A stretch of 42,944 bases of DNA. It comes from an uncultured Cryomorphaceae bacterium. GTDB taxonomy: Bacteria > Bacteroidota > Bacteroidia > Flavobacteriales > Schleiferiaceae. The position numbers and the translations under genes are program-made. The stretch lies in contig CAJWZE010000009.1 in NCBI GenBank assembly GCA_913049845.1, positions 1-42,944 on the forward strand, read 5' to 3'. Positions within the stretch are counted from its first letter, which is position 1; every line of letters begins with the position of its first letter. Below the pieces are notes generated by a model. That model was not told where the DNA came from. It saw only the letters and a list, made by a program, of their open reading frames with translations, and ran no database searches. This document shows positions 940 through 30,901 of the stretch, one piece after another.

Positions 940-946
940 ATAAATC

Positions 947-2461: not shown

Positions 2462-2472
2462 AATTTAGAATT

Positions 2473-3348: not shown

Positions 3349-3357
3349 GGAGAATAA

Positions 3358-4518
3358 ATGAAGACACTCTTAAACGTATGTTTAATTTTCGGAATGGGCT
3401 TCGCAACTTCTAGTTGCGAAGCACCTTCCGTTCCTCAACTAAGTGCAGAGGATGTAATTATCGACGAAGGCAATGAAACTCATGTTTTGCAATTCTACGT
3501 CTATCTTACTGAGGCTGCACCAAGAGAAGTGTCGATCGACTACACAACTAGTGCTGTGAGCGCTGATGAGGGTAGCGACTTCGAGGCTACTCAAGGAACA
3601 TTAGTCATTTCCAAGGGCGAATCTTTAGGAGTAATTCCGATAACGATTTTTGGCGATGAAGATTCTGAAGACACGGAATCCCTGTGGGTTTCATTCAGCA
3701 ATCCTATAAACGTAACCACTCCGATTCCTTATGCTCAAATAACCTTGACAAATGATGATGGTGCACCACCCATCGATAATACTGGTTATACCTCTCCATC
3801 AAGTTACTCAGGTCTCACTTTAGTATGGGAGGAAGATTTTGATGGTTCATCTGTTGACGGTGCTACTTGGAACTTTGAAACCGGAGCGTCTGGCTGGGGC
3901 AACAACGAAAGTCAATTCTACAGAGCAGGAACTCAAAATGCCGAGCTGGATCAAGGATTCTTGAGAATTACGGCCAAGGAAGAGACGTACTTAGGTGCGC
4001 CATATACTTCTGCACGTATGACTACGCAAGGCAAAGAATCCTTCAAATACGGACGTATTGATATCCGCGCAAAGGTGCCCTATGGACAGGGTATTTGGCC
4101 GGCACTTTGGATGCTTGGCGACAACTTTAGTTCTGACGGTTGGCCCACATGTGGTGAAATAGACATTATGGAACTTATTGGCGGTGAAGGTTATAATGAC
4201 CGCACTGTTTACGGAACTGCCCATTGGTCAAACAATGGTTCGCATGCAGAGTATAGCGGAAACACGAGTTTGCCGAACGGTGAAAAGTTTAACGACGAGT
4301 TCCACGTGTTCTCTATCGTTTGGAATAGCTCATCAATTAAATGGTACAGAGACAATATGCTGTACCATTCTATGAATATCGGTAACATGAGTGCGTTTCA
4401 TAAGGAGTTCTTCCTTATTTTGAATATTGCCGTAGAAGGAAACTGGCCTGGTCCAGTTGGCCCTTCAACCCAATTCCCTCAGTATATGCTGGTGGATTAT
4501 ATAAGAGTTTTTCAATAA
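3358..4518 (+). CDS. GH16 endo-beta-1,3-glucanase (laminarinase-type) lipoprotein with N-terminal Calx-beta domain
   Basis: 386 residues. A lipoprotein signal ends at Cys20 (FATSSC). Residues of about 28-135 are a Calx-beta-like repeat (VIIDEGNETHVLQFYVYLTE, then ITIFGDEDSEDTESLWVSFS). Residues of about 150-386 are a GH16 domain with the retaining catalytic motif GEIDIMELIG: Glu267 nucleophile, Asp269, and Glu272 acid/base, the E-x-D-x-x-E form of laminarinases. Other conserved parts are WNFETG..GWGNNESQFY, KYGRIDIRAKVPYGQGIWPALWML and FHVFSIVW. It should cut beta-1,3-glucan at the cell surface to oligosaccharides for the SusCD pair. A good Shine-Dalgarno-like AAGGAG lies 8 bases upstream of the start, unusual for this phylum. 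Family call very sure; strict laminarin preference is inferred. Confidence 0.95.
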   Translation: MKTLLNVCLIFGMGFATSSCEAPSVPQLSAEDVIIDEGNETHVLQFYVYLTEAAPREVSIDYTTSAVSADEGSDFEATQGTLVISKGESLGVIPITIFGDEDSEDTESLWVSFSNPINVTTPIPYAQITLTNDDGAPPIDNTGYTSPSSYSGLTLVWEEDFDGSSVDGATWNFETGASGWGNNESQFYRAGTQNAELDQGFLRITAKEETYLGAPYTSARMTTQGKESFKYGRIDIRAKVPYGQGIWPALWMLGDNFSSDGWPTCGEIDIMELIGGEGYNDRTVYGTAHWSNNGSHAEYSGNTSLPNGEKFNDEFHVFSIVWNSSSIKWYRDNMLYHSMNIGNMSAFHKEFFLILNIAVEGNWPGPVGPSTQFPQYMLVDYIRVFQ

Positions 4519-4545
4519 TTACTAACCATTAAATAAATGCTTAAC

Positions 4546-5874
4546 ATGAAAAAAATCTACGCTTTATTGATGTTGTGCTTGCCTATGCTAGGTTTTGCAC
4601 AAAAGGATGTTACGTTTATCGTTGATATGCGTGACTATTCAGGTTCGTACACTACAGTTAACCTTAACGGGGACTTTAACAGTTGGTGTGGTACTTGTAA
4701 TCCTATGGCTGATCCAGAAGGTGATTCTATTTGGACAGTAACTCTCCCATTGACTGCTGACTCTATCGAGTACAAGTTTACTCTTGACGGTTGGACAGGA
4801 CAGGAAAGTTTGACTTCTGGTACGGCATGTACTAAGACTACTGGTATTTACACTAATCGTTTTGCCGAGCTAGCTGGTGATACAATTTTAACTGGAGTTG
4901 CTTGGGAATCTTGTGATGCTAAGGCTGGTCAAGTTTATGTTACTATGCAAGTAAATATGTCTTACCAAGCTGTTGATTCAACTGGTGTATTCTTAGCCGG
5001 TGGTGGTAACTTCGGTAACCCAGGAGATAATCAAATGCACCCAATCGGTGATAGTATTTACAGCATTACTTTGCCAAAAGATACTGGCTTCTTCTCTTTC
5101 TTCACATTTACCAACGGCGCTTGTCCGTCGTGGGGTTGTAAAGAAAACTTAGCTGGTAAGCCTTGTGGTGACCCAAACAACTACAATGATCGTTCTACAG
5201 GTTCTGCATTGTATGGTGATTTCCATTTGATGACTTGTTTCGGCGAGTGTACTACTGACGGTACGTGTCCGGTTCCTCCGACTCCGGTAAACGTTACTTT
5301 CCAGTCTGACCGTAACTCAATCTTGGGGACGTTTACTACTGCTTACGTTTCAGGTACAATGAACGGATGGTCAGGTGATGCAGACATGATGTCTGACGAT
5401 GATAGTGACGGTGTGTACACTGCTACTTTATCTTTGTTACCAGGTTCTTACGAATTCAAGTACACTGCTGATAACTGGGCGATACAAGAAAATTTTGATC
5501 CTGCAACTGCAGATTCAGTATGTACTTTGACTACTGGTGCTTTCACTAACCGTTTCATTACGATTGGTACTGCTGATACTACTCTGGACGTTCAATGTTG
5601 GGAAGAGTGTGGTCCATGTGCAAACATCGGTATCGAAGAAAAGTCTGCTTCATTTGTAGTAAAGCCAAATCCTGCATCTGACGTATTGTTCATCGATAAC
5701 ACTACTGGAACTACTTCGAATGTAGCTGTATACAGTATCACTGGTGCTCGTGTAATGGAAGCGACTTTTGAAGCCGAGGCTCGTTTAGACGTTGCTTCTC
5801 TGCCACGCGGTATGTACATAGTACGTGTACAAAACGGTTTGACTGAGAAGGTTGTGCGTGTAGCCTTGAAATAA
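4546..5874 (+). CDS. Secreted multi-domain carbohydrate-binding-like protein with T9SS sorting domain
   Basis: 442 residues from the second of two close ATGs; this one begins directly with the signal peptide MKKIYALLMLCLPMLGFAQ, so I prefer it to 4537. Three tandem beta-sandwich units follow, at about 22-125, 128-240 and 245-350. Units one and three share VTF...D....G.F.T.....G..N.W and Y.FK...D.W..QE followed by C..TTG..TNRF; this resembles the E-set/glycogen-binding type of fold. The middle unit is divergent and Cys-rich (CPSWGCKENLAGKPC). The end, from about 370, is a type A T9SS sorting domain (VKPNPASDVLFID ... LPRGMYIVRVQNG). No hydrolase motif is seen, so it is probably a surface or released glycan-binding protein. 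Codons are strongly biased to GGT, ACT, GCT and TCT, suggesting high expression. It is the last gene before a strong terminator. Confidence 0.8.
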   Translation: MKKIYALLMLCLPMLGFAQKDVTFIVDMRDYSGSYTTVNLNGDFNSWCGTCNPMADPEGDSIWTVTLPLTADSIEYKFTLDGWTGQESLTSGTACTKTTGIYTNRFAELAGDTILTGVAWESCDAKAGQVYVTMQVNMSYQAVDSTGVFLAGGGNFGNPGDNQMHPIGDSIYSITLPKDTGFFSFFTFTNGACPSWGCKENLAGKPCGDPNNYNDRSTGSALYGDFHLMTCFGECTTDGTCPVPPTPVNVTFQSDRNSILGTFTTAYVSGTMNGWSGDADMMSDDDSDGVYTATLSLLPGSYEFKYTADNWAIQENFDPATADSVCTLTTGAFTNRFITIGTADTTLDVQCWEECGPCANIGIEEKSASFVVKPNPASDVLFIDNTTGTTSNVAVYSITGARVMEATFEAEARLDVASLPRGMYIVRVQNGLTEKVVRVALK

Positions 5875-5908
5875 TATTCACTTACCTTTTGGTTAGTAAG
5901 TAAGTGTA

Positions 5909-5940
5909 GGGGGACCCGTTTCGGGTCCCCCTTTCATTTT
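5909..5940 (+). terminator. Strong intrinsic terminator ending the glucan operon
   Basis: A perfect 9-bp stem, GGGGGACCC (5909-5917) and GGGTCCCCC (5923-5931), with a 5-base loop GTTTC, is followed by a T-rich run to 5940. A second 7-bp hairpin, CACTTAC (5879-5885) with GTAAGTG (5900-5906), lies just upstream. It closes the susCD-PKD-GH16-T9SS unit. The next gene starts only 14 bases later. Confidence 0.92.
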
Positions 5941-5953
5941 GTACCTTACGCAT

Positions 5954-8767
5954 ATGCGAAGGTTACTCACGTTATTGCTTTTTGTCCTGTCTTTGTCCGG
6001 CTTCTGTCAGGAGGCTCGCCTTATTGATGCAAGCCAGGGATTGAACAACCCAACTGTATATGACATTGTCCAAGACCATTGGGGATTTGTCTGGATTGGA
6101 ACCAGGGACGGTTTGTACAGATACAATGAGGGAAAAGCAATAAATATTTCCTTTCTAGATTCTACAACTGAACGTCGTTCAAACAACGTACAGAGCTTAT
6201 TGGTCTCTCAAGATTCAATCCTTTACATTGGGCTACAACTTGGGGGTGTCGTCAGTTTTGATTTGAGCAACCTTAGTGCGCGTCCAGACAAAAAATGTCC
6301 GCAGTTGCCCTCAAATTATTCTATCATCTCATTATACGAAACCAAGGATGGAACTATCTGGGCAGGAACAAGTGGAATTGGTTCCTACTTTTTACGCCCT
6401 GGAGCTGACAGGTGGCAGCAGTTAACAAGTAAACTTCACGGTTTAGATATTTCGTTTTGCTTTGATTTTGCTGAACAAGGCGACACACTTTGGATGGCCA
6501 CAACGGGTTCAAAATTGTTGTACGTGCTTCAGTCAAACAATACCATCCTTTCCGCACTCGTAAATGGGGAGGTAAGTTCGTTTCGCAAATCGGTGGATGT
6601 TCGAGGAGGCGATGTTGTGTTTGGGGTAGAAGATCAAGGGCTTTTTCGATTAAATACTACTTCGGGTGCTTTTGAAAGAGACGCGACTTTAGATCCAATA
6701 GGTCCACGGGATGTTCATTTTGACGGAGATGATTTGTGGGTAAGTACCGATGGAGAAGGCTTGTACAGATCGGCTGATGGACGCGTCGACCACTATTCTA
6801 AGTACCAGCCACAGTTAGGCTTCGCATCGGACCAATTCTATGGCATTTATGATATTTCAGACCAACTGTGGTTAGGTACGTTTAACTCAGGTATCACAGT
6901 ACTTCCAAAAAGTGAACGCATAGTTCGAACCCTGCTTAAACACGAGGATTTCGCCTATTCTGGATTGCAGAGTTCAATTGCTTTGCTCGAGCACAACGGT
7001 CTATGGGTAGGTTACGACGGTGATGGTTTGGTTCGTTATACTACTGATACTGATAAGCCAACTGTACGCAGGATTAATCCTGCATTGTTGCCGGATGTTG
7101 TCACCAGCCTTGAGACCTATGGCGACGAACTATGGGTGGGAAGTCTATCTGAAGGGTTGTTCATCTTAGACGGTCAAGGCAAACTTAAACGCCGTTTCTT
7201 GGCGAGCTCTGGCATCGCCTTTGGTTTAATCAATAGTAATATTTGGTCTATCGAGCAAACTTGGGGGGACAGCCTTTGGATAGGCACATTGAGCGGACTC
7301 CAATATTGGAACGGACAGGAGTTTATCTCTCCTTTTCAGGTGCCGTGGCGTGTTGGTCGCAACATCATGGATCTTGAGTTTACCGGTAGCGAGCTGTGGG
7401 TTGGATCGGAATTTATGGGGCTGCATTCCATCGATAGTAATGGAGGAATATTTTCGGTAGCATTGGACAACAGTGTTCTTGATTTAAGTTCCTTTGGCGG
7501 CCAATTGATCATTGGAACCGAAGGGGCAGGGATTCTTTCGTATCGAGAAGGCATATTAGATACAGTTCTTAAGAATTCAGATTACATCAACTGTTATGCT
7601 TTAGCAACAGGGGACCACTATATATATGCAACAACCTCTCTTGGTTTAGGGCGTATACAGTACATCAATAACCTTTGGGAATTTGAGCTCATCCGCGAGA
7701 TTGATGAATTACAGATTGGACTACCGAATAGGAAATCACTCATTTTAAAAGGTGAAAACCTTTATGTTGGAGGAACCAAAGGTGTAGCGATAGTTAATGT
7801 GAATGATATACGTACAGCGGAGGTACCTAATCTATTATTGACGGACGTATATGCAGATAATGAAAAGCAATCCACTAAATTGATTAAAAACGCCAATCAA
7901 GATCGTCACCCTATTGCTTTTAATGCGGGTACAAAGTCAATTAGGTTTTCATTTGAATTAATGTCTCCTTCTTTTCAAAGAGGTGTGTCGTTTCATTATA
8001 AATTGTCTTCAAACGACGAACGCTGGATGAACCTGCCTCAAGGCTCACGAATCATTGATTTATCAGAGCTCGATCCGGGTAAATACACGATAGAAATTTC
8101 AGCGACGAAATCAGGCGTAGCACCCCAAATATTGTCTTTTGATTTTGTTATGAAGGCTTTCTTTTGGCAGCAATGGTGGTTCAAGCTTATCATGTTTGTA
8201 GTAATTACATTCTTGGTTGGAGCAGCAGTATTCTTTTTCCAAGACCGTAAATTCAGATTGACGCGCCTAAAACTTGTAGAAACTGAACGTGAGCTTCTAA
8301 AAGCAAGGGCGTCCGAGCTGGAGGTGAAGACAGAAAAACAAAAGACAGAACTCAGCTTTCAGTTATTGAAGACTTCTTCGCGTCTAGAGCTTCTTCAATC
8401 CTTTAAGGAACGCTTGGTGAAGGAAAGCGAGAAGAAAGGACGTGCTGAGGAGGTACTCAAGTTCCTCAAAGGAATGACCAGAGAGTTGAATCGAGAGCTC
8501 CAAAGTGAAAATTATTGGGATCACTTTGAGCGGAATTACCGTGAGCTGCACGAGGACTTCTCTGCAAAGCTCAAAGCAGAATATCCAACGTTGACTAAAG
8601 GTGAGATTCGATTGAGTTATTTGCTTCGTCAGCAGATGAGTAATAAGGAGGTCGCTAACGTACTAAACGTGAGTCCGGCAGCTGTTGAAAAAGCCAAATA
8701 CCGTCTAAAGAAGAAACTTGACCTTGAAAAGGGCGATTCTCTGGATGAATTCATCCAAAAAATTTAA
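5954..8767 (+). CDS. Membrane-spanning sensor-regulator: beta-propeller, Y_Y_Y domain, LuxR-type HTH
   Basis: 937 residues from ATG 5954, which gives a clean signal peptide MRRLLTLLLFVLSLSGFCQ; a TTG further up (5939) would start inside the terminator. Residues of about 20-650 are repeats of the two-component-regulator propeller type (DHWGFVWIGTRDGLYRYNEG; repeated LW.G....GL units). About 670-720 is a Y_Y_Y domain (FHYKLSSNDERWMNLPQGSR). One transmembrane helix lies at about 741-763, then a coiled coil, then an HTH at about 879-922 (LTKGEIRLSYLLRQQMSNKE). No histidine kinase or receiver domain is present, so this is a one-component regulator: periplasmic sensing of an oligosaccharide, cytoplasmic DNA binding. 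It should control the flanking glucan genes. Domain calls are firm; ligand and targets are inferred. Confidence 0.9.
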   Translation: MRRLLTLLLFVLSLSGFCQEARLIDASQGLNNPTVYDIVQDHWGFVWIGTRDGLYRYNEGKAINISFLDSTTERRSNNVQSLLVSQDSILYIGLQLGGVVSFDLSNLSARPDKKCPQLPSNYSIISLYETKDGTIWAGTSGIGSYFLRPGADRWQQLTSKLHGLDISFCFDFAEQGDTLWMATTGSKLLYVLQSNNTILSALVNGEVSSFRKSVDVRGGDVVFGVEDQGLFRLNTTSGAFERDATLDPIGPRDVHFDGDDLWVSTDGEGLYRSADGRVDHYSKYQPQLGFASDQFYGIYDISDQLWLGTFNSGITVLPKSERIVRTLLKHEDFAYSGLQSSIALLEHNGLWVGYDGDGLVRYTTDTDKPTVRRINPALLPDVVTSLETYGDELWVGSLSEGLFILDGQGKLKRRFLASSGIAFGLINSNIWSIEQTWGDSLWIGTLSGLQYWNGQEFISPFQVPWRVGRNIMDLEFTGSELWVGSEFMGLHSIDSNGGIFSVALDNSVLDLSSFGGQLIIGTEGAGILSYREGILDTVLKNSDYINCYALATGDHYIYATTSLGLGRIQYINNLWEFELIREIDELQIGLPNRKSLILKGENLYVGGTKGVAIVNVNDIRTAEVPNLLLTDVYADNEKQSTKLIKNANQDRHPIAFNAGTKSIRFSFELMSPSFQRGVSFHYKLSSNDERWMNLPQGSRIIDLSELDPGKYTIEISATKSGVAPQILSFDFVMKAFFWQQWWFKLIMFVVITFLVGAAVFFFQDRKFRLTRLKLVETERELLKARASELEVKTEKQKTELSFQLLKTSSRLELLQSFKERLVKESEKKGRAEEVLKFLKGMTRELNRELQSENYWDHFERNYRELHEDFSAKLKAEYPTLTKGEIRLSYLLRQQMSNKEVANVLNVSPAAVEKAKYRLKKKLDLEKGDSLDEFIQKI

Positions 8768-8929
8768 TTGTCCAGCAACTGTCTTGCTTTATATAACCCA
8801 GCCTGAAGTAATTACAGCATCTTTGAATGGGTGTTACTAATTTCCAAAATTATGCATAATTAAAGCGAGATAGTTTTCCATAGGGAGGCGCTTCGTTCTT
8901 TTTTTATCTTCAACACAGAACAACGCATC

Positions 8930-11626
8930 ATGAAACGTATATTTTTATTTGGAGCTTTACTTGTTTCAACGCTCTTATCGGCCCAATACGTAAAATCAAA
9001 TGGTAAGGCCATTGTCGATGGATCTGGGGATACATTGCTTATTCGAGCTATGGGAGTTGGCGGTTGGATGGTTCAGGAAGGCTATATGCTTCAAACCGCT
9101 TCATTCGCGAGTCCACAACACAAGATAAAGGACACTATTGAAGATCTCATCGGCGCAACAGCAACCCAGGCCTTCTACGACGCTTGGCTCGAAAACCACT
9201 TCAATAAGGCAGATGCAGATAGCATGGCGGCTTGGGGTTTCAATACCATTCGAGTTCCTATGCATTATAATCTTTTCACCCTTCCGATTGAACAGGAACC
9301 TGTGCTCGGTCAAAACACTTGGCTCACTAGGGGATTTGACCTGCTGGACTCCGTGGTTACTTGGGCAGAAGATGCAGGATTGTATGTCATATTAGACCTT
9401 CATGCCGCGCCCGGAGGTCAGGGCTATGACCAAGGCATTAGTGATTACGATCCCACTAAGCCTTCGTTGTGGGAAAGTGTCCACAACAGGACAAAGACTG
9501 TTGCGCTTTGGAAAAAGCTGGCGGAGAAGTTTGCCACAGATACGACCATTGCTGGGTATGATTTAATCAATGAACCCAACTGGAATTTGCCGGGTGGGAC
9601 CTTGCTTAGAAATCTTTACGAAGACATAACTGATAGTATAAGAACCGTAGATACCAACCACATTATCTTTATAGAAGGGAATTGGTTCGCAAACACATTT
9701 ACCGGATTGACGCCTCCATGGGACAACAACATGGCCTATTCACCTCATAAGTATTGGTCGCCGGTAAATAGTGTCGCCGACATTCAGTATGGATTGGACC
9801 TAAGGGATGCGTACAACGTGCCCATTTGGTTTGGTGAAACGGGTGAAAACTCCAATGCTTGGTACACGGGTTTAATTACCATAATGGAATCCGAGGGAGT
9901 CGGCTGGGCTTGGTGGCCGTTGAAGAAGGTAGAGACGATTAATGCGCCATTAAGCATTACTAAAAACCTTGGCTACCAGCAGTTATTGAATTATTGGAGC
10001 GGTAGTGCAAGTGCTCCATCGGTGGCGGACGCTACCGCAGCACTCATGCAGCTTGCAACCAATCTTAAAGCTGAGAATTGCACCTACAATAGAGGGGTCA
10101 TCGATGCGATGTTTAGGCAAATTTATGACCCTACGGCATTGCCGTGGAAAGAGCATAATATTCCAGGCGTTGTTCACGCGTCTGAATACGACATGGGTCC
10201 TTTGGGTGTAGCGTATTACGATACAGAATCTATGCAGCTGAATCCTCCGCCTGCATGGAACAGTGGTTGGACCTATAGAAACGATGGGGTAGATGTTCAG
10301 GCATTCTCAGATTTCGTGAATAGTAATGGCTACTGTGTGGGGTTCGTAGATACAGACGATTGGATGCAATACACTGTAGATATTGCGCAAGACAGTGTGT
10401 ACACGATCAAAGTGCGTCAAGGTGCAAACGGTGCTACTGGAGGCAACTTTTACTTTGAAGCGGACGGTGTAAAAGTAACCCCAAATTATTACGCTTCGAA
10501 TACGGGTAGTTGGTCTATTCTGGCAGATAAGGTGATTCCTAATGTCATTCTTTCTTCTGAGGACAATACGCTTCGCTTTGTGGCGAACAGTGGTGGCTTT
10601 AACGTCGCTAGTTTCGAATTTATCGCTACTGGTAGTACTGCATCGCTGGATGCTGAATACGTTGGTTCAGTCACGCACAGCTACACTGAAATAGAGGTCA
10701 AAACGAACAAGCCTTTGGATACGACACAGCTCGGAAATTTTGCCTCTTACTACATCACTATAAACGGAAATCAAGCATCTGTTGTGAATATTGCACCTAG
10801 CCCAAGCAATGTTCGAAATTTCATCTTGACACTGAATCAGAACATGACCTTCTTAGATGAAATGAAGGTTTCTTATTCAGGAACCGCCCTTAAAGCAAAA
10901 GACGGAACTTCTGTAGATCCATTCACTCAGGAATTGGTTGAAAATACATTGCCTACAGTGCACGTTATACCTGGTAAAATAGAAGCAGAAGCATATTCTA
11001 GCATGGACGGAATTTCATTGGAGAACACCTCCGACGTTGGTGGTGGCCAGAACATCGGTTATCTAGACGGTGGCGATTATTTGCTTTATGACATCAAGGT
11101 GTTAAACAATGCTACTTATTCCATTGATTACCGCCACGCTTCACAAAGCAACGGTAAGATTCAATTTGAATTGTACGATACGTCAGGAACTTATCTAAGC
11201 AATATGCCGGAGGTCACACTACCTTCGACCGGTGGATGGCAGACGTGGACAACGACTAGTGGAAATGCTGGTGTGCTGACTACGGGCGATTACATTTTAA
11301 AGCTCAATGTCATTCAAGCCCCGGTGAACATCAATTGGTTTGAGTTTATTCAAGGCATTGGTGTCGAAGAGGAATTGGCCTCAGACTATCTTATGGTTTA
11401 TCCAAATCCTGCGCAGGATGGGTTCAGGCTCGGTGGTATTTGGACTGAAGGAGCCCCACTTCAAATCTATGTGTATGATGAGTCGGGCAAGCTTTGGATT
11501 AAGGAGTCGCTGGCGTATTCTTCTGATCGCGTTATTTCTTCCAAGGAGTTGTCTACGGGTAGTTATTTTGTGACTGTAGTTTCCTCTGGTAGAAGGTTTA
11601 CAGAAAAATTAATGATTGTTCATTGA
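8930..11626 (+). CDS. Secreted GH5 glucanase with CBM6-type modules and T9SS sorting domain
   Basis: 898 residues. Signal peptide MKRIFLFGALLVSTLLSAQ. A GH5 domain (about 20-355) has WGFNTIRVPMHYN, DLHAAPGGQGYDQG, GYDLINEPN with acid/base Glu215, SPHKYWSP, and IWFGETGENSN with nucleophile Glu303; this form resembles exo-beta-1,3-glucanase-like GH5 subfamilies more than cellulases. A CBM6-like module follows at about 425-565 (FVDTDDWMQYTVDIAQDSVY), then a Big/SwmB-like domain (about 570-680), then a second CBM6 (about 683-805; KIEAEAYSSMDGI, IGYLDGGDYLLYDI) and a type A T9SS domain (YPNPAQDGF to the end). It probably trims laminarin or its beta-1,6 branches outside the cell, with the GH16 enzyme. 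The 162 bases upstream hold no obvious -33/-7 pair. The next gene overlaps it by one base. Confidence 0.9.
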   Translation: MKRIFLFGALLVSTLLSAQYVKSNGKAIVDGSGDTLLIRAMGVGGWMVQEGYMLQTASFASPQHKIKDTIEDLIGATATQAFYDAWLENHFNKADADSMAAWGFNTIRVPMHYNLFTLPIEQEPVLGQNTWLTRGFDLLDSVVTWAEDAGLYVILDLHAAPGGQGYDQGISDYDPTKPSLWESVHNRTKTVALWKKLAEKFATDTTIAGYDLINEPNWNLPGGTLLRNLYEDITDSIRTVDTNHIIFIEGNWFANTFTGLTPPWDNNMAYSPHKYWSPVNSVADIQYGLDLRDAYNVPIWFGETGENSNAWYTGLITIMESEGVGWAWWPLKKVETINAPLSITKNLGYQQLLNYWSGSASAPSVADATAALMQLATNLKAENCTYNRGVIDAMFRQIYDPTALPWKEHNIPGVVHASEYDMGPLGVAYYDTESMQLNPPPAWNSGWTYRNDGVDVQAFSDFVNSNGYCVGFVDTDDWMQYTVDIAQDSVYTIKVRQGANGATGGNFYFEADGVKVTPNYYASNTGSWSILADKVIPNVILSSEDNTLRFVANSGGFNVASFEFIATGSTASLDAEYVGSVTHSYTEIEVKTNKPLDTTQLGNFASYYITINGNQASVVNIAPSPSNVRNFILTLNQNMTFLDEMKVSYSGTALKAKDGTSVDPFTQELVENTLPTVHVIPGKIEAEAYSSMDGISLENTSDVGGGQNIGYLDGGDYLLYDIKVLNNATYSIDYRHASQSNGKIQFELYDTSGTYLSNMPEVTLPSTGGWQTWTTTSGNAGVLTTGDYILKLNVIQAPVNINWFEFIQGIGVEEELASDYLMVYPNPAQDGFRLGGIWTEGAPLQIYVYDESGKLWIKESLAYSSDRVISSKELSTGSYFVTVVSSGRRFTEKLMIVH

Positions 11627-12030
11627 TGAGATACATGGTCTTTCTTTTGTCTGTTACAGCTTTATTTGTGAACTGTTCAACGAGGACCCAATGTGTAAAT
11701 TCAGTAATAATATATGAGGGTCTCGAAGGCAATTGGGAGATTTACCAAAGAACGGATACGGTGACTATGTTGCCTACTTTCCTTCAAGGTGAGGATTTAA
11801 TTATTCGAAATGACTCTATCTGTGACGATTTCCAGGGCCTTTGGGAGTACAGGTCGTCAAATAGCGAAAATGGCGGAGAATTCACTTTGGATACTACTAT
11901 CAAAGAAATCATCTTCTTTACCCCAACCTATAGCTTTAGGTGGGATTACATAGTTGTCGATTATGACAATTTGGTTTTCGAGTATAATAACGCCGGTCTC
12001 GACATTCGAGAGCTTTGGCGTCGAAAGTAA
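11626..12030 (+). CDS. Small hypothetical lipoprotein, lipocalin-like
   Basis: 134 residues from ATG 11626, which shares its A with the TGA of the GH5 gene (TGATG), a sign of translational coupling; an upstream TTG at 11623 is less likely. A short signal with ALFVNC makes Cys17 the probable lipidated residue. The rest (LEGNWEIYQRTDTVTMLP, IIRNDSICDDFQGLWEYR, FTPTYSFRWDYIVVDYDNL) has the pattern of small lipocalin-like beta-barrel lipoproteins common in Bacteroidota. I cannot assign a ligand. It ends one base before the convergent M61 gene, with no terminator visible between them. Confidence 0.65.
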   Translation: MRYMVFLLSVTALFVNCSTRTQCVNSVIIYEGLEGNWEIYQRTDTVTMLPTFLQGEDLIIRNDSICDDFQGLWEYRSSNSENGGEFTLDTTIKEIIFFTPTYSFRWDYIVVDYDNLVFEYNNAGLDIRELWRRK

Positions 12031-14019: not shown

Positions 14020-14799
14020 TTAAGCCGCCTCTTCTTTCGTGCTAACAGCAAGAGAGTAGATGACAAGACCGAATCCGATTTTGTTAACTGCATCACCAAT
14101 GTTGTAAACAACATCCATGTATGCAGATGCAGCAGCTGAGTCAGAAACTAATTGAATTCCGAACAGACCGCCTGGTGTACCCAACATGTAACCTAATGGG
14201 TAAATTGCCCATCCTACCAAAACGAACCAGAAAAGAATTTTTACTGCTTTCGCTACTGCAGGACCAGCGTTCGATGCCAACTGAGCCACTTCTCCTTTCC
14301 ACACCAAGAATACGATGTAGAAGTAAGCAGCACCAGAGAAAACGCCAAACATAACTGAAGACTCACGATAAACAGTTTCACCGAGGTAACCAGTTACAAG
14401 CATAATTACTGACGCGATAATAAGTTTCCATAGAAGACTCATCTTTGCACCAGCTTTCTTAGTGATTAAGTAGAACTCAACACACATTAGTGGAACAGTG
14501 AGCGTCCAATCAACGTAACGGAAGAAAGTTGGAGATTCTCCAGTTTCGAAGTGGTAACTTCTCATGTAGTAGTAGTGTACGAACGCAATGAACGTAATCA
14601 AACCACTTACCAATAAAGAAGTACGCCATTTTTTATCTACGTTCCACATTTCGAAGAAGAAGAACACAGATGCAGCCATCATAGCCATACAGCCTACGAA
14701 AAACGTAAACGATGTAACGGTTGTGATGTCAGTGTAGGCAGTTAAATCAACTGCCGCGTTGCTAGCACTAACGCTAGCCAATAAATTTGTCAATGACAT
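14020..14799 (-). CDS. Proteorhodopsin, green-type proton pump with carotenoid-fenestration glycine
   Basis: 259 residues, seven helices, retinal protein of the proteorhodopsin family; numbering equals that of the green reference protein up to helix C. Helix C reads RYVDWTLTVPLMCVEFYLI: Asp97 proton acceptor, Thr101, Glu108 donor (DTE, outward proton pump). His75 (AFVHYYYMR) is present, the partner of Asp97. Met105 at the spectral switch predicts green absorption (Gln would be blue). Lys240 in YNIGDAVNKIGFGL is the Schiff-base lysine. In helix E, Gly152 (MFGVFSG) falls where xanthorhodopsin has its antenna-accommodating glycine and the classic green protein has Phe, so a carotenoid antenna may bind. 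It provides light-driven proton motive force in the inner membrane. Divergent from the gene that makes its retinal; terminator follows. Confidence 0.98.
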   Translation of the reverse strand: MSLTNLLASVSASNAAVDLTAYTDITTVTSFTFFVGCMAMMAASVFFFFEMWNVDKKWRTSLLVSGLITFIAFVHYYYMRSYHFETGESPTFFRYVDWTLTVPLMCVEFYLITKKAGAKMSLLWKLIIASVIMLVTGYLGETVYRESSVMFGVFSGAAYFYIVFLVWKGEVAQLASNAGPAVAKAVKILFWFVLVGWAIYPLGYMLGTPGGLFGIQLVSDSAAASAYMDVVYNIGDAVNKIGFGLVIYSLAVSTKEEAA

Positions 14800-15011
14800 G
14801 GTGTATAAAAATTAAAGGTTATAACTACCCCTTAACTATACCCTTCGGAATTTGTTCACAGAATTTTAAAATTGAGTGAAAAAACTCAAAAAAGACCCGC
14901 TTTGCAACATCTGAAGCGATAATTTGACTCTTTTTCGCTTGGTATGGAGAACAAAAAGGCAGATTTTTAGTTTATTAAATTAAAGGGTAGGTCAGACATT
15001 TAATCATTATC
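14800..15011. promoter_or_regulatory. Shared divergent control region of proteorhodopsin and crtY-blh
   Basis: 212 AT-rich bases between the two divergent starts. The clearest element is the inverted repeat TTGAGT (14872-14877) GAAAAA ACTCAA (14884-14889), a perfect 6-bp arm pair that could be an operator or a hairpin in the rhodopsin leader. I find no full TTG-N17-23-TAnnTTTG promoter on either strand. TTGCAACATCTGAAGCGA then TAATTTG on the + strand is a poor partial match. Co-regulation of pump and chromophore synthesis is inferred from the arrangement. Confidence 0.5.
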
Positions 15012-16982
15012 ATGTATACTTTTGGATTCATAGGATTGGGAGCGGCAAATTCATTGCTCTTGTTGCATATGGAAAAAGAAGGCTTGTTGGAGGAATCTGC
15101 AGGTATAGTATTTGACCATAGCTTTAAAGTAGTAAATGATAAAACCTATTGCTTCTGGGCTTATCCAAACGATGATATTGTGAAGGATCTGGGTGCAGAA
15201 ATTAAGCACAGCTGGTCAAGAGTAGTTTCTGGGAACAAAGTAGAACACCTCAAGGGTATGCGTTATTATATGGTAGAGAGTATTGCACTCTACGATAGAA
15301 CCCGAGCATTACTTGAACGCCATCCGAATATCAAGACCTCCAACGAAGAAGTTAGGGAGATTGAGGATCATAATGTCTACATAGATCTTCACACAAATGA
15401 AGGGAGTTACCAAGTCTTAAAAGTCTACGATAGTCGTCCACCACTCATTAACGAGGTCATTGGACAGACCGTGTGGCAAAGCTTTGAAGGATGGAAGGTT
15501 GTCTTTAACAAACCTAAGTTCAATGAGGACACTATGCGTCTCATGGATTTTAACATCCCGCAAAGTGGTTTTACACAGTTTGTATACGTGCTGCCGACAA
15601 GCAAAAACGAGGCTCTAATCGAGCTTACTAGGTTTGGAAACGAATTACTCTCACCAGAACTGTCCAAGGATTTATTGCGTAACTATCTGCTAACCTTTAA
15701 CGGCAATTACAGCATCAATCATATTGAGCGGGGCGTGTTACCTATGTCCCAGAATGCAGAGCAGTACCACCGCAGTACAAAAGTAATTTCAACAGGTGCT
15801 CGTGCGGGTAAGTTGAAAGCTACGACGGGCTACGCATTTAAAAATATGTATGAGCACGGCCGTGAAATTGCAGTCAATGAATCTTTGAATAAATTAACTA
15901 GTCCTTGGTTCGGGTTACCTTCTCGAGGCGGCGGTCGTTTTGCGTTCTATGATTTTGTCTTACTTTTTATATTGAAGTTTAGACCGCAGTGGGGGAAAAG
16001 CATCTTTACGCGCCTCTTCAAATCAAACCCTACATCGGATGTCTTCACATTCTTAGATGAAAAGAGCAGTGTGCGTTGGGAAATAGGCATGTTTGCTCGC
16101 TTGAACAAACGTAAATTTGTTTGGAGTGCTGTGGTTTCTGCGCTTGCTTTCATGTTATCCAAACCTCAGCGTTGGGTGCCGATTGTATTTTCTTTACTGG
16201 CGCTTGCCGTCAACTACTTTGTACCGGGATATGGAACAAATCTCGGTATCGGGTTATTGTTGTTTTTCCTCTTTTTGGTTGGGATTCCTCACGGTGCACT
16301 CGACGGTTTTTCTCATACACGAAATTTAAAGTTACCGGCCTTCATAGCTCGTTATCTAGGTATTATGGCTTTGGTCGTTTTACTTTGGTTGGTTAGTCCA
16401 GTGGCAGGGTTGGTTATTTTCCTAATATATAGCGCATGGCATTTCGGCGAAACAGATCTTATTGAATGGCAGCGTTCAAACGTAGGATTATCTTTCTTAT
16501 GGGGCACTGTGCTTCTAGGAATAGTTCTGCTTTCTCACATTGAGGAAGTAAATATAATGATGAGTTATATGAGTGTTCCTGACTGGCCTCTTCAAAGCGG
16601 AACGGCGACCTCTTTAGTTAATATGCTGCTCTTTTTTGGATTTATGTGTGCCTTCTGGTTTAGATCTGCCGCTTGGGCGCTCTCATTAATTGCCTTAGCA
16701 CTTGGTACGCAGCTGCCTTTGGTGTTGAGTTTTGGAGTGTACTTCGTTTTGCAACACAGCTTGACGGGTTGGAGCCATTTGCGTACGACAGAGAACTGGA
16801 CGCATAGTGGCATGTTTATTAAAGCGTTGCCTTTTACAGCTGGTGCAGTAATTATGTTTTTGATTATGTACCAGTTTGACCGCAGTTCACTTTGGCAGTG
16901 GTCGAGCTACTTTCTCATTTTCTTGAGCGCGTTGAGCCTTCCTCACATTTACTTTATGTCGCGCCTTTACAAAGAAATTTAG
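15012..16982 (+). CDS. Fusion of lycopene beta-cyclase (CrtY) and beta-carotene 15,15'-dioxygenase (Blh)
   Basis: 656 residues in one uninterrupted frame. The N-terminal 340 or so residues are CrtY-like: dinucleotide motif FGFIGLGAAN (Gly8, Gly10, Asn13), SFEGWKVVFNKPKF, LMDFNIPQSGFTQFVYVLPT, LIELTRFG and GKLKATTGYAFKNM. After a linker (about 345-372), the remainder is a polytopic Brp/Blh domain with the conserved histidines GIPHGALDG (His427), AWHFGETD (His477), LQHSLTGWSHL (His582, His589) and LPHIYF (His645). Together these convert lycopene to beta-carotene and cleave it to two retinals at the inner membrane, supplying the divergent proteorhodopsin. Phytoene synthase, desaturase and crtE are not in the window. 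Each half is about the usual length of its free-standing family, so nothing seems lost. It overlaps the next, convergent gene by 4 bases. Confidence 0.95.
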   Translation: MYTFGFIGLGAANSLLLLHMEKEGLLEESAGIVFDHSFKVVNDKTYCFWAYPNDDIVKDLGAEIKHSWSRVVSGNKVEHLKGMRYYMVESIALYDRTRALLERHPNIKTSNEEVREIEDHNVYIDLHTNEGSYQVLKVYDSRPPLINEVIGQTVWQSFEGWKVVFNKPKFNEDTMRLMDFNIPQSGFTQFVYVLPTSKNEALIELTRFGNELLSPELSKDLLRNYLLTFNGNYSINHIERGVLPMSQNAEQYHRSTKVISTGARAGKLKATTGYAFKNMYEHGREIAVNESLNKLTSPWFGLPSRGGGRFAFYDFVLLFILKFRPQWGKSIFTRLFKSNPTSDVFTFLDEKSSVRWEIGMFARLNKRKFVWSAVVSALAFMLSKPQRWVPIVFSLLALAVNYFVPGYGTNLGIGLLLFFLFLVGIPHGALDGFSHTRNLKLPAFIARYLGIMALVVLLWLVSPVAGLVIFLIYSAWHFGETDLIEWQRSNVGLSFLWGTVLLGIVLLSHIEEVNIMMSYMSVPDWPLQSGTATSLVNMLLFFGFMCAFWFRSAAWALSLIALALGTQLPLVLSFGVYFVLQHSLTGWSHLRTTENWTHSGMFIKALPFTAGAVIMFLIMYQFDRSSLWQWSSYFLIFLSALSLPHIYFMSRLYKEI

Positions 16983-18217
16983 GTCGATTTTTTACGTAAT
17001 GTAATGTGTGTGATCTCTGGCCATATGCCTACACGACCTGGGAAGGCCAAAAATCCGAACCCTCTGTTTACATGCAAGACTTGACCGTCAGATTCAGGAT
17101 ACAGTCCGGCCCACTTCGGGTATTTGAATTTCACAGGAGACCATTTGATCCAACCGGGGACTTCAATCCCAAATTGCATACCGTGGGTATGACCGCTTAA
17201 AGTAAGGTGCACTTTTTTTGAATGTTGTTTTACCTCGGCATCAAAATGCGACGGATCATGGCTCAACAATACCGTGAAGGCGTTTTCCGGAATACCATGA
17301 AGCGCTGCCGGCAAATCTCCGTATTGCGGGAAGGGAGGTAGTCCCCAATTTTCGACACCTGCTAAATATAACCGCTGATTACCACGCTCAAAGTATCGAC
17401 TTTCATTCAAGAGCAAATCCATACCCATTTCTGCGTGGATTTCTTTGAGTCTGTTCAGGTTATCCGCCTTTGCTTGTTCTGAAGGGAAGCGCCAATAGTC
17501 GCCATAATCATGGTTTCCAAGGATTGAGAACACACCATTCCTGCCGCTTAATTCCTTAAAGGTGTCAATCCACGGTTCTGCTTCAGTAGCAATATTATTG
17601 ACCAGATCTCCAGTGAACACAATGGCATCGGCACCAAGCTCGTTGACCATCTTTACACCGTATTCCACTTTTTCTTTATTGACGAAGGATCCGCTATGAA
17701 TATCAGAAATCTGAGTAATAGTAAAACCTTGGAATTGATCCGGTAAGTCTTCGAATTCCAAAGTGTGACTGATGACCCTGTATCTGTAGCGCCCTTTCCA
17801 AATACCGTCTATAATTCCAAGAAAGGGAATGGCTGCAAGTCCCAGGGCTATCTGAGAAATGAATTTGCGTCGTTCGGTCAAGGTAGTTGGCTGTGTGGTA
17901 ATAATGCGGAATACGTACTGTACCAATCGGCTAACATCTTCGAGTAGTAGGGGAATAATCGCCACGAGTTTTGGCACGGCCAACAAGATGCTCGCTCCCA
18001 CAAGGATACCGAGGTATCTATAATCTGCCTTTCCGCTGCTCAAAAGCGCGGAAATACTTACGATGAGAACGATATACGTGAGTGTAATTCCCCAATAAAT
18101 CCAGGGGGTACTGGTAGTACGGAAGACGGTTTTGAAAGCTTGATAAGCATATAGGTCTATGGCAAATACAAATCCCAGGGCAAGGAGAATTCTGAATATC
18201 ATAATATATGGATACAT
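16979..18217 (-). CDS. Membrane-anchored metallophosphoesterase
   Basis: 412 residues from ATG 18217; a TTG at 18262 would add 15 residues that look unlike protein. About 150 N-terminal residues hold four hydrophobic segments (FRILLALGFVFAIDLY, IYWGITLTYIVLIVSISALL, YLGILVGASILLAVPKL, ISQIALGLAAIPFLGII). Then comes a calcineurin-type phosphoesterase with all five motifs: QISDIHSG, VFTGDLVNN, SILGNHDYGD, LLSHDPSHF and LSGHTHGMQFG, which bind two metal ions. The catalytic domain resembles the YaeI-like family, some members of which act on lipid A precursors such as UDP-diacylglucosamine, but the substrate here cannot be told. It is convergent with and overlaps the crtY-blh gene by 4 bases and diverges from polA. 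Confidence 0.88.
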   Translation of the reverse strand: MYPYIMIFRILLALGFVFAIDLYAYQAFKTVFRTTSTPWIYWGITLTYIVLIVSISALLSSGKADYRYLGILVGASILLAVPKLVAIIPLLLEDVSRLVQYVFRIITTQPTTLTERRKFISQIALGLAAIPFLGIIDGIWKGRYRYRVISHTLEFEDLPDQFQGFTITQISDIHSGSFVNKEKVEYGVKMVNELGADAIVFTGDLVNNIATEAEPWIDTFKELSGRNGVFSILGNHDYGDYWRFPSEQAKADNLNRLKEIHAEMGMDLLLNESRYFERGNQRLYLAGVENWGLPPFPQYGDLPAALHGIPENAFTVLLSHDPSHFDAEVKQHSKKVHLTLSGHTHGMQFGIEVPGWIKWSPVKFKYPKWAGLYPESDGQVLHVNRGFGFLAFPGRVGIWPEITHITLRKKST

Positions 18218-18278
18218 ACGTGGAATCAACGCCGTCTGAAGCCTATTGTTTTCCGTATACAAAACTCGTTATTTAAGT

Positions 18279-24859: not shown

Positions 24860-27097
24860 TTAGGATTTGCTGTCCAATTTTATTCGAAGTCCCAAATACA
24901 TGTTCCTTGGTGCTGAAGGTATAATTCCTGGTCCAGGGTATCCAAGTGCTCTTCGGGTAAAATAAACATCGTTGAATAAATTATTTATACCAAATTCTAA
25001 AGCACCCCACTGAGATGTAAATGCACCGCTAAAGTCAACGACTGTATAGCTCGGGATGGGACCTAAAATTCCATCACGAAGATCACCGGGCTGCGCTATT
25101 TCACTGTTTTCTACATCTGTGAATTGTTTTGACAGCACGGTTGTTTGAAGACTGAAATTCCATTTATCACTCTTAGCTGAAATTCCATTTTTGAGATTTA
25201 GTAGTGGGACAAATTCAACGCGTTTTCCTTGAACGTTAGGGACCTCACTTCGAATGTAGTTAGCGCCGGTAATTGCAGTATTAGCCCAAACATCTATTTC
25301 CCATACTCCTTCGTTCGGAGGAAGTAAATCATAGGCGATATAGCTTTCTAGACCATACATAAGCGCAGTACCGATATTCTTGCGTACTCTTTGAGCGCGA
25401 TTATTGAAGACGATACCAATTCTATTCGCGTAGTACAGGCTGAATACATTGGCGTCATAACTCAATCTTCCCTTTTTGCCTCTAACCCCTAGATCACTAG
25501 TCCATCCAGTTTCATCTTCGATATTCGGGTCTATGATAAATGTGGGATTAACTGTTCTGATATCAGAAAAGGTCACAGATCGATAATTCTGACTCCAATT
25601 AAAGTACCTTTCTTTATCATTGACTTTTTTAGAAATACCTACTCCAAATAGTGCAAAACCTCGTGAAAAACTGAAGTCATCATTTAGTTCACTACGATTT
25701 ATCACATTTCCAGCATTGTCATAAACGATATTCGTATAATTTCCTTGCGCCTCTGTCTGTATATGTTCCATTCGTAGGCCAGGAATAATACTCCAGCCCT
25801 CATTTAGGTAGAATATATGTTCAGCAAAAACTGCAAAGTTTCTGTTGGGATAAGTGAAGGAACTCTGATTAGGATAGTCATTGAATTCTTGATTTCGAAA
25901 GGTGAAATCAGCATCCGCTGCATTACTGCCAGGCCCCTGTTGTGTGAAATTTATACTTTGAAAGCCCTTCATACCAAAAAGCATTACTCGTGGTTGCCCC
26001 CCCTTGTATCTGTATCGATGAAGTACCTTCGCCTCAAGGGTTTGATTGTTGAATTGGCCGGCAATGAGGTCACGTTCATAAACGAAAGTACCATCGGCGT
26101 TTTGTTCATCAATAGTTAGTATTGGATTGAGGTTAATCATACTCGGGATTCCTCTGAACCCTAAACTTAATCTTTCAGCTTGTAAAGCGGTTGTTTTGAT
26201 TTCAATGGTTGTTTTTGAGTTCGGAGTATAGACCCAATTGGCATGTAGTAGATTCCAGTTAACAGAGAAATAATTACGTTTACGGTTAGATGCAAATGGG
26301 TCACTGCCAAACATGTAATCTGTTAATCCGCCAGATTGCTGGGCTAAATAGTAGAGATATGTGTGCTCTAAAATGAACGTATTGTTTTCATTTGGCTTCA
26401 AACGCAGCTTCACGTAACTATGATCAGCATTTAATGCACTATTTGGCCTAAATCCTTGAGAAAGGCGTTTATTGTAATAACCATAGGCACTTACCATTCC
26501 CTTGTTAATACTTGCACTGGTAAAATTTGTACGCAGCCCATAAGATCCAATTGTGGTACTGTTTTCAAAAGCCCATTTGACATTTTCTTGAGGATCTTTC
26601 ATCTTGAAGTTGAGCATTCCCCCAAACTGAGATCCGTATTGTAAACTTGCTGCGCCACGTATAACCTCTATCCTTTGAATTCCATCACTTGTAGGGGTAT
26701 AGTAAGATTCTGGATACCCTAGTGGATCAGCACTAATGTCATACCCGTTTTGGCGCGTATTGAAATTAGAAGTCCTATTCGGATCTAGGCCTCGAGAACC
26801 AACGGAAAGCTGCAATCCTGCATCATCATTTTCAAAAATTGTAAGACCGGTAATACCTGAAAAAAGTTGTCTAGTGGTATTTGCACCCTTGTTTAAAACC
26901 AAATCATCTAATGATACCACCTCACTTTTTTTTCCTGCATAAATACTGAGGCCTTCGACATTTTTCAATGATGCGCGAGATTCGGACTTTTTCTCCGTTA
27001 TCCTAATCTCATCAAGCACCACACTCGCGGTATCAGACGACTGTGCATAGCTTAAAAATGGAAATAAAAGAATTACAACGAGCTTATTACAGTCCAT
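24860..27097 (-). CDS. TonB-dependent receptor, FecA-like
   Basis: 745 residues from ATG 27097, which gives the signal peptide MDCNKLVVILLFPFLSYAQ; the frame runs up to a TTG at 27130 without adding a sensible N-terminus. A plug domain (SLDDLVLNKGANTTRQLFSG, VGSRGLDPNRTSNFNTRQNG, RIEVIRGAASLQYGSQFGGM) precedes a 22-strand type barrel ending FGINNLFNDVYFTRRALG and YLGLRIKLDS. It lacks the carboxypeptidase-like N-terminal domain of SusC proteins, so it belongs to the siderophore/metal type; closest by look to FecA-like receptors. Its start overlaps the end of the gamma-carboxylase-like gene by 11 bases, so it is the last gene of the DUF4856-imelysin-carboxylase unit. Substrate unknown, iron chelate likely. 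Confidence 0.93.
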   Translation of the reverse strand: MDCNKLVVILLFPFLSYAQSSDTASVVLDEIRITEKKSESRASLKNVEGLSIYAGKKSEVVSLDDLVLNKGANTTRQLFSGITGLTIFENDDAGLQLSVGSRGLDPNRTSNFNTRQNGYDISADPLGYPESYYTPTSDGIQRIEVIRGAASLQYGSQFGGMLNFKMKDPQENVKWAFENSTTIGSYGLRTNFTSASINKGMVSAYGYYNKRLSQGFRPNSALNADHSYVKLRLKPNENNTFILEHTYLYYLAQQSGGLTDYMFGSDPFASNRKRNYFSVNWNLLHANWVYTPNSKTTIEIKTTALQAERLSLGFRGIPSMINLNPILTIDEQNADGTFVYERDLIAGQFNNQTLEAKVLHRYRYKGGQPRVMLFGMKGFQSINFTQQGPGSNAADADFTFRNQEFNDYPNQSSFTYPNRNFAVFAEHIFYLNEGWSIIPGLRMEHIQTEAQGNYTNIVYDNAGNVINRSELNDDFSFSRGFALFGVGISKKVNDKERYFNWSQNYRSVTFSDIRTVNPTFIIDPNIEDETGWTSDLGVRGKKGRLSYDANVFSLYYANRIGIVFNNRAQRVRKNIGTALMYGLESYIAYDLLPPNEGVWEIDVWANTAITGANYIRSEVPNVQGKRVEFVPLLNLKNGISAKSDKWNFSLQTTVLSKQFTDVENSEIAQPGDLRDGILGPIPSYTVVDFSGAFTSQWGALEFGINNLFNDVYFTRRALGYPGPGIIPSAPRNMYLGLRIKLDSKS

Positions 27098-28433
27098 GAA
27101 TGCTGTCGTTAAAAGGTAACAACCAATCAATCGGTTGGAAGTTTCTCGATTTTGTAATTAAATCTATGGTAGGGTCAACAAATGCCTTCGAGGTACGCCC
27201 GTTTAGACTTACAAATGAATCTGCATAAACAGAGATATTTCGACCTTCCGTTGCTTTATAGTGATTAGCTAAATGATGCGCGTACTCCAATATAAAGTCC
27301 GGTTGGAATGCCATTTGTTTTTCCTGAAATGAACTGAGAAATTCCTCGTTTTGAACAGTCCAGCTTTCGCCCGTGTCCTTGTCGACTATTCTAAAAGTGG
27401 TGTATCCTTGTTTTTCCATAAGCATTACTCGCCATGAAAACCTGAACCCTTGTTCATGCCAAAAGAGCTCTCCAGGGTAGAATAAATAGCGCCAAGGTAA
27501 AATGATTTGACTCGCTATTATAAGAGTGACCAACCATTTGCTAGAACCAAGATACTTTCTTTTTTCAGATTGATCTTGCGGTCTAAGAAAAGGCAGCGCT
27601 CTATAAAGGAATGCAATATGATATTTTGAAGGAAAAAAAATTGTCGCAGCTATAATCATAATCCAAGGAAACATACCAATAGGAAACAGAACACGTGTCA
27701 TGATGTGAAAGGCGATTACCAGAACAAACGCTATCTTTTGTGTACGTTTATTTACAAGTAGAAAGGGGATAGTCAAATCGTAAATCGCTCCTCCCCATGA
27801 AAAAAGATAGTGTACCCACGTACTTTCAAAGAATTGACCGATTAAGGGGAGATCAGTTTTCGTTGTCAACCATATACTAAGAGGCTGAGCCTCAAAGAGC
27901 CAGTCGCTGTTTAATTTTGCCAAACCAGCATAAAAGTAGACGATGAAAATAAAAGCTTGAATACTTAACAATGTCCACTTAGGAATAAGTCGTTCACAGG
28001 ATCTTCCTTGTTTATTATCAAGACTATATGTCGCATTTGCAGGCAAAAAGCAAAGTAACAGAGCAACAATACTGATGAAGTAATAATGATTTAGATAAGT
28101 AGTCTTATCCATAGCCTCTATGTAAGTAAAGGATAGAAAGAGTACCATTGTGCTCAACTTGTATCGATAACCTAGAGCTACGCCTATGGCGCTGATAAAA
28201 CACAACAGGAAGAGCCCATAGGTCCATATCCCCAAGGGTTGTACCCATGAGAAACCTAAATAAGTAAAATGAAAGACAGGAGATAGATAGAGCTTTTCAA
28301 CCCAGCCATAAGCCACGAATCTAAGCATTGATAGAGCTATGATAATTCCGAATAAAACACGAAAAGCCGCTAAAGGAGCGGCTTCTGTGCTGTAATATAT
28401 AGAACGGTATCTCGATCTAATCGCCATCCGCAT
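27087..28433 (-). CDS. Vitamin K-dependent gamma-carboxylase-like (HTTM) membrane protein
   Basis: 448 residues. The N-terminal 310 or so are a polytopic HTTM domain, the remainder a beta-rich lumenal-type domain. From memory of human GGCX: human DKTSWNNHSYLYGLL corresponds to DKTTYLNHYYFISIV here (His116 at human His160), human YFIAGVKKLDADW to YFYAGLAKLNSDW (Lys173 at the catalytic base Lys218), human LFSIGMFSYVM to LFPIGMFPWIM, and human YGYSWDMMVHS to FRFSWRVMLME. The C-terminal parts also align (FVSLNGRTSKAFVDPTIDLI). So the residues for vitamin K hydroquinone deprotonation seem present. The true substrate is unknown. The gene overlaps its upstream neighbour by 17 bases and its downstream one by 11, strongly suggesting one operon with imelysin and TonB receptor. 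Confidence 0.88.
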   Translation of the reverse strand: MRMAIRSRYRSIYYSTEAAPLAAFRVLFGIIIALSMLRFVAYGWVEKLYLSPVFHFTYLGFSWVQPLGIWTYGLFLLCFISAIGVALGYRYKLSTMVLFLSFTYIEAMDKTTYLNHYYFISIVALLLCFLPANATYSLDNKQGRSCERLIPKWTLLSIQAFIFIVYFYAGLAKLNSDWLFEAQPLSIWLTTKTDLPLIGQFFESTWVHYLFSWGGAIYDLTIPFLLVNKRTQKIAFVLVIAFHIMTRVLFPIGMFPWIMIIAATIFFPSKYHIAFLYRALPFLRPQDQSEKRKYLGSSKWLVTLIIASQIILPWRYLFYPGELFWHEQGFRFSWRVMLMEKQGYTTFRIVDKDTGESWTVQNEEFLSSFQEKQMAFQPDFILEYAHHLANHYKATEGRNISVYADSFVSLNGRTSKAFVDPTIDLITKSRNFQPIDWLLPFNDSIHGL

Positions 28434-29544: not shown

Positions 29545-29545
29545 C

Positions 29546-30754: not shown

Positions 30755-30789
30755 TTTATTTTTATTTAGACTTATTATAAATAACGACG

Positions 30790-30797
30790 CAAAAGTA
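30790..30797 (-). promoter_or_regulatory. Candidate -7 box for the DUF4856-imelysin operon
   Basis: On the minus strand this reads TACTTTTG, a full match to the flavobacterial TAnnTTTG box, 35 bases upstream of ATG 30754. No TTG occurs 17-23 bases further up. No clear Fur box is seen in the 147-base gap. Confidence 0.4.
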
Positions 30798-30901
30798 AGT
30801 TTCAAAAACAATAACTTTTACCGGAATACAAAGAAAAAATACCGCTAATAGAAAACACCGAAATTATAGATAGGTTTTCCTTTAACGGTTAAGATGAATG
30901 G

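Follow-up and report, generated by a model that had tools for sequence, protein, structure and literature searches.

The 42,944-nucleotide window, a stretch of one contig from an uncultured Cryomorphaceae bacterium, encodes a lycopene cyclase (CrtY) and a beta-carotene dioxygenase (Blh) as a single fused polypeptide beside a proteorhodopsin gene (Table 1). Its product is probably a membrane enzyme with both activities, reserved for making retinal, with a second cyclase encoded elsewhere in the genome, CrtYcd, serving other pigments. Both fused enzymes are known; the novelty lies in their fusion and in its co-occurrence with a second cyclase. The open literature yielded no description of CrtY fused to Blh in a bacterium (subscription journals and preprints lay outside the search).

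Table 1. Features of the fused gene, its rhodopsin neighbour and the carotenoid clusters of the same genome (positions refer to the window unless another locus is named)
Feature	Position	Strand	Details
Proteorhodopsin	14020-14799	-	PF01036 E 5.1e-43; helix C D97-T101-E108, M105
Divergent intergenic region, rhodopsin / crtY-blh	14800-15011	.	212 bp
crtY-blh fusion gene	15012-16982	+	656 aa, ATG start, TAG stop 16980-16982
CrtY half, residues 1-358	15012-16085	+	PF05834; GxG dinucleotide motif G8, G10; E204
Junction, residues 359-415	16086-16256	+	mostly helical in predicted model
Blh half, residues 416-656, multi-helix membrane dioxygenase	16257-16979	+	PF15461, TIGR03753
Universal Blh His codons	16290 (H427), 16440 (H477), 16755 (H582), 16944 (H645)	+	
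Fused-clade codons	16536 (H509), 16770 (W587), 16776 (H589)	+	
Carotenoid/light cluster	L170 4978-11721, contig C32		CarH-like MerR/B12 regulator, ECF sigma factor, crtI, crtB, idi, PTPS, folE, photolyase
Xanthophyll cluster	L185 8160-13416, contig C6		CrtZ-CrtYcd-CrtD-CruF + CarF-like lipid desaturase (PF10520)

Anatomy and conservation of the fused gene

The fused gene is a single open reading frame of 656 codons with no internal stop, which bears out the initial annotation of a complete cyclase and a complete Blh in one frame. Both Pfam domains are near full length, PF05834 (Lycopene_cycl) spanning residues 6-358 (profile 4-364 of 380, E 5.6e-30, 105.1 bits against a cut-off of 23.4) and PF15461 (BCD) residues 420-652 (profile 3-266 of 267, E 1.6e-29, 103.8 bits against a cut-off of 28). 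The Blh half also exceeded the cut-off of TIGR03753 (Blh, beta-carotene 15,15'-dioxygenase; 122 versus 95.25 bits). The CrtY half, the only Bacteroidota CrtY scored in this way, fell below the cut-offs of the NCBIfam cyclase models TIGR01790 (56.8 versus 209.5 bits) and TIGR01789 (38 versus 215.2 bits), a result that speaks against a bifunctional enzyme. The fusion is present as a single copy in the genome (1.79 Mb, 106 contigs), and at its stop codon it overlaps by four bases the 3' end of a phosphoesterase gene in convergent orientation (16979-18262, - strand).

In comparisons with three 93%-identical relatives, dN/dS was 0.025-0.032 for the CrtY half, 0.037-0.058 for the linker and 0.041-0.052 for the Blh half, ratios that are approximate because dS is near 1; all three segments are under purifying selection. 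The span from residue 366 to 415 measures 45-50 residues across 90 aligned fused proteins. That an assembly artefact joined two genes, an explanation favoured by the state of the source assembly (85% complete, 106 contigs), is refuted by the comparative data and now extremely improbable, as the identical frame occurs across dozens of independent assemblies, including long contigs. This recurrence, together with purifying selection on the linker, also excludes the assembly frameshift that had been feared at residues 340-375.

Within the CrtY half, all 90 fused and all 45 separate CrtY keep E204, E239, K269 and D314; G8 and G10 are likewise kept in all 90 fused and in 44 of the 45 separate sequences, the remaining one having a gap. 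The dinucleotide motif and the putative catalytic acid of CrtY-type cyclases are both present in this half, the latter presumably as E204, which we take to be the likely counterpart of Pantoea CrtY E196. Cyclisation of lycopene at both ends is predicted, a class assignment for which sequence alone does not separate mono- from bicyclases.

Five conserved histidines had initially been listed for the Blh half. Four of these (H427, H477, H582 and H645) show little or no variation across fused and separate Blh; the fifth, H589, is specific to the fused clade, where it is near-invariant (86/89), and H509, which had been overlooked, is invariant in that clade and variable among separate Blh. H509, W587 and H589 are conserved features of fused Blh, partly shared by the separate Blh of two genomes of the same family (G032 and G030), but most of the remaining separate Blh do not conserve them. 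In the usual Blh motif HSxxH the second His is presumably a ligand in marine Blh; at that position the fusion has Gly586, and the three extra residues combined with this loss may indicate an altered metal site.

AlphaFold predicted the whole fusion with pLDDT 87 and pTM 0.75, and the Blh half alone with pLDDT 90 and pTM 0.88. The fold of the CrtY half (model, residues 1-374) was nearest to geranylgeranyl reductases (3oz2, Z 24.4, rmsd 3.8 over 345 residues). For the Blh half, Foldseek returned no match to solved structures at E <= 0.001, and the best entries in the VIA list of structures, a designed knot (Z 6.0) and a rhodopsin (4.7), were taken as background; a sequence search of solved structures matched only maltose-binding protein, at chance level. 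Since no solved relative of the Blh half was found by sequence or Foldseek, this well-predicted fused family may be a structural target.

Distribution and origin of the fusion

A full-length fused frame was present in 23 of the 25 genomes of the same genus, and in the remaining two (G004 and G005) the matches lay in pieces on different contigs. The initial annotation had proposed a check for relatives covering both domains. Other genomes carry the fusion too: among public genome contigs, a scan confirmed 121 relatives, the best 80 of which span essentially both halves, although this is not a census because the search patterns came from the fusion itself. Across an even sample of the phylum, the fusion was found in 5 of 395 genomes, the window's genome counted among them. 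The fusion is an old one; its frame stays continuous down to ~31% identity, and as labelled, the loci belong mainly to Flavobacteriales (Schleiferiaceae, Cryomorphaceae and Crocinitomicaceae), Chitinophagales and Saprospirales. Fused genes were also seen in bins labelled Streptomyces griseus (L059) and Candidatus Parcubacteria (L085), which are probably mislabelled Bacteroidota bins rather than transfers outside Bacteroidota. Phage and viral collections yielded no relative, and plasmids yielded separate cyclases and distant Blh only, leaving mobile elements unsupported as carriers.

In a careful CrtY tree the fused sequences formed one clade (97/98), whose sister was the separate crtY of G032 and G030; crtY and blh are adjacent in G032 and lie on different contigs in G030. 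The next branch comprised tandem genes of genomes G201 and G029. The Blh tree likewise grouped the fused proteins with the separate Blh of G032 and G030 (97/98), and recovered a fused-only clade in 46% of bootstraps. The CrtY tree supports a single origin, neighboured by lineages whose crtY and blh are unfused and often in tandem, and the simplest reading would be one fusion event from a tandem pair. That the two genes are separate in other lineages, as initially stated, was borne out: the phylum sample included 21 genomes with separate crtY and blh in tandem, whose frames mostly overlap, many of them by up to ~100 nt. At one tandem locus (L156 1300-1540, genome G178), the TGA of crtY is followed by one codon and then the ATG of blh in the same frame, so a single change could fuse them.

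Rhodopsin linkage and a second cyclase

The neighbouring rhodopsin gene is divergent to the fusion, as had been noted. Its product carries the D-T-E motif in helix C and would be of the proton-pump type, and we read M105 as green-tuned. Sigma-70-like promoters in the intergenic region were at chance level (2 matches versus 1.9 in shuffles). Rhodopsin lay within the fetched flank at 62 of the 80 best fused loci, with the motif DTE in all 62, either upstream on the same strand (n = 32), divergent (n = 18) or downstream on the same strand (n = 12); several of the remaining 18 loci are short contigs. When 12 genomes without rhodopsin at the locus were searched whole, 10 proved to have one away from the locus or on a different contig (G450, G451, G452, G487, G461, G471, G470, G488, G489 and G491), and none was found in G474 or G490.

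The fusion, the crtI-crtB cluster and the CrtZ-CrtYcd-CrtD-CruF cluster lie on three different contigs of the window's genome. The gene content of the crtI-crtB cluster suggests light- or B12-controlled carotenogenesis, and the CarF family, represented in the xanthophyll cluster, is behind plasmalogen-dependent light signalling elsewhere. CrtYcd and CrtD scored above the cut-offs of TIGR03462 and NF042421, respectively. The CrtZ-like protein reached no Pfam or NCBIfam model and shares 42% identity over 87% of its length with a Pantoea protein whose gene neighbours crtB, crtI and crtY; PF04116 was rejected as a proxy for crtZ because its strong matches were long sterol-desaturase-like proteins. 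CrtYcd of Bacteroidota is a monocyclase in Algoriphagus (PMC10784355, PMC2889829), where crtB, crtI, cruF, crtD, crtYcd and crtZ, with crtE and crtW, have been linked to a monocyclic carotenoid (PMC10784355); the first six were those sought in the window's genome, and all six are present. From these pathway genes a monocyclic saproxanthin-like xanthophyll is therefore predicted, which would leave beta-carotene mainly for retinal.

The initial annotation had named a separate crtY and blh elsewhere in the genome as a possible refutation. A search of the whole genome found no second homologue of either gene; the genome does hold a non-homologous cyclase, CrtYcd, whose presence recasts the fusion as a second cyclase apparently reserved for retinal. 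CrtYcd was found in 22/25 genomes of the genus and 28/37 other fused genomes, compared with 3/85 genomes that have CrtY without an adjacent blh (Fisher 1.4e-16 for fused genomes against these 85, shared ancestry ignored) and 2/21 genomes with tandem crtY-blh. CrtZ homologues occurred in 39 of the 42 fused and related genomes searched, usually beside CrtYcd. The nine other fused genomes in which CrtYcd was absent have no completeness figure. In one genus, three complete genomes with the fusion (G259, G275 and G373) likewise gave no detectable CrtYcd, and the two of them searched for CrtZ both carry it, so CrtY-Blh may need to supply other carotenoids there; these genomes are the main counter-example to dedication to retinal.

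Proposed function, alternatives and related systems

In the proposed mechanism, lycopene would enter the FAD-type N-terminal CrtY half and be cyclised at both ends to beta-carotene, which would reach the iron site of Blh either by way of the membrane or by direct transfer. There the C-terminal iron-type half, using O2, would cleave beta-carotene to two all-trans-retinal, which would serve the proton-pumping rhodopsin, encoded divergently, as chromophore. The remaining carotenoids, for which a monocyclic, saproxanthin-type structure is predicted, would come from CrtYcd acting with CrtZ, CrtD and CruF, whose genes lie elsewhere. Coupling CrtY to Blh would provide one cleavage site per cyclase and could favour cleavage of beta-carotene ahead of hydroxylation by CrtZ; hydroxylated carotenoids such as zeaxanthin are not known to be Blh substrates. 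What the computation establishes is the anatomy of the gene, its conservation and selection, its linkage to rhodopsin and the presence of the second pathway. Both activities, any direct transfer and the channelling and locked ratio initially proposed are inferences, as is dedication of the fused CrtY to retinal, which we draw from the second cyclase. In a bolder and less probable reading, lycopene would feed two insulated branches in those Bacteroidota that have two non-homologous cyclases, one leading through CrtYcd to monocyclic xanthophylls and the other through a CrtY whose covalently attached Blh cleaves its beta-carotene before CrtZ can act; the fusion would then be a natural metabolic insulator with a single origin in a tandem gene pair.

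An in-frame tandem join yielding a bifunctional enzyme might instead have been kept mainly for co-expression and a 1:1 ratio, with neither channelling nor dedication, so that beta-carotene leaks into the membrane and also feeds CrtZ. The frequency of tandem, mostly overlapping pairs in the phylum sample, the G178 locus one change from fusion and the complete fused genomes with CrtZ and no CrtYcd all fit such a history; most fused genomes, however, hold a second cyclase, usually beside CrtZ, which would be redundant if CrtY-Blh fed xanthophylls, and we regard this explanation as rather unlikely. Equally doubtful is substrate tunnelling, in which beta-carotene would be handed straight from CrtY's active site to that of Blh, inside a single polypeptide or its dimer. 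The helical junction of near-constant length, the well-predicted folds of both halves and the conserved residues specific to the fused clade (H509, W587 and H589) are consistent with tunnelling, but the pTM of the whole model does not fix the relative placement of the halves, and beta-carotene is membrane-soluble, so diffusion in the membrane may suffice.

Catalytic death of one half, retained as an anchor or scaffold, could account for the sub-cut-off NCBIfam scores of the CrtY half and the replacement of the second HSxxH His by Gly586. Against it stand the retention of all residues invariant between fused and separate CrtY and of the four universal Blh His, purifying selection on both halves and a genome with no other crtY or blh homologue, and it is very improbable.

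Compared with the separate crtY and blh of rhodopsin clusters, the fusion has the same enzyme families, pathway steps and rhodopsin neighbour, and shares the invariant CrtY residues and universal Blh His; those systems differ in using two polypeptides, often from overlapping tandem genes, and most of their Blh are without the fused clade's three conserved residues. A four-domain CrtI-CrtB-CrtYc/d-Blh protein of Thecamonas trahens, read as linked to retinal supply (PMC10016063), also joins a lycopene cyclase domain to a C-terminal Blh in one polypeptide; it comes from a eukaryote, uses the unrelated CrtYc/d cyclase and additionally contains CrtI and CrtB, and is an independent invention. The natural CrtIB fusion of Verrucomicrobiota rhodopsin clusters (PMC10284914) similarly joins neighbouring enzymes of the retinal pathway within a rhodopsin gene cluster, but acts at earlier steps, combining phytoene synthase and desaturase. 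CrtYcd (PF18916) catalyses the same reaction type as CrtY and occurs in most fused genomes, and differs in being non-homologous to CrtY and unfused to Blh.

Retinal supply sets how much rhodopsin works, and cells must share out beta-carotene between retinal and the carotenoids used for protection or as antennae. With a fusion and close relatives whose genes are unfused, insulation of a membrane pathway becomes testable, and the fusion offers an off-the-shelf component for producing retinal and engineering rhodopsins.

Elsewhere in the window, a polysaccharide-utilisation-like locus (13-12030, + strand) encodes SusD, CBM48 and GH5-CBM6 proteins bearing T9SS sorting tails, together with a regulator that contains Reg_prop repeats. 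On the opposite strand (24860-30811, -), consecutive genes for a TonB receptor, an HTTM/VKGC-like carboxylase, an imelysin and a DUF4856 protein possibly form one uptake operon.
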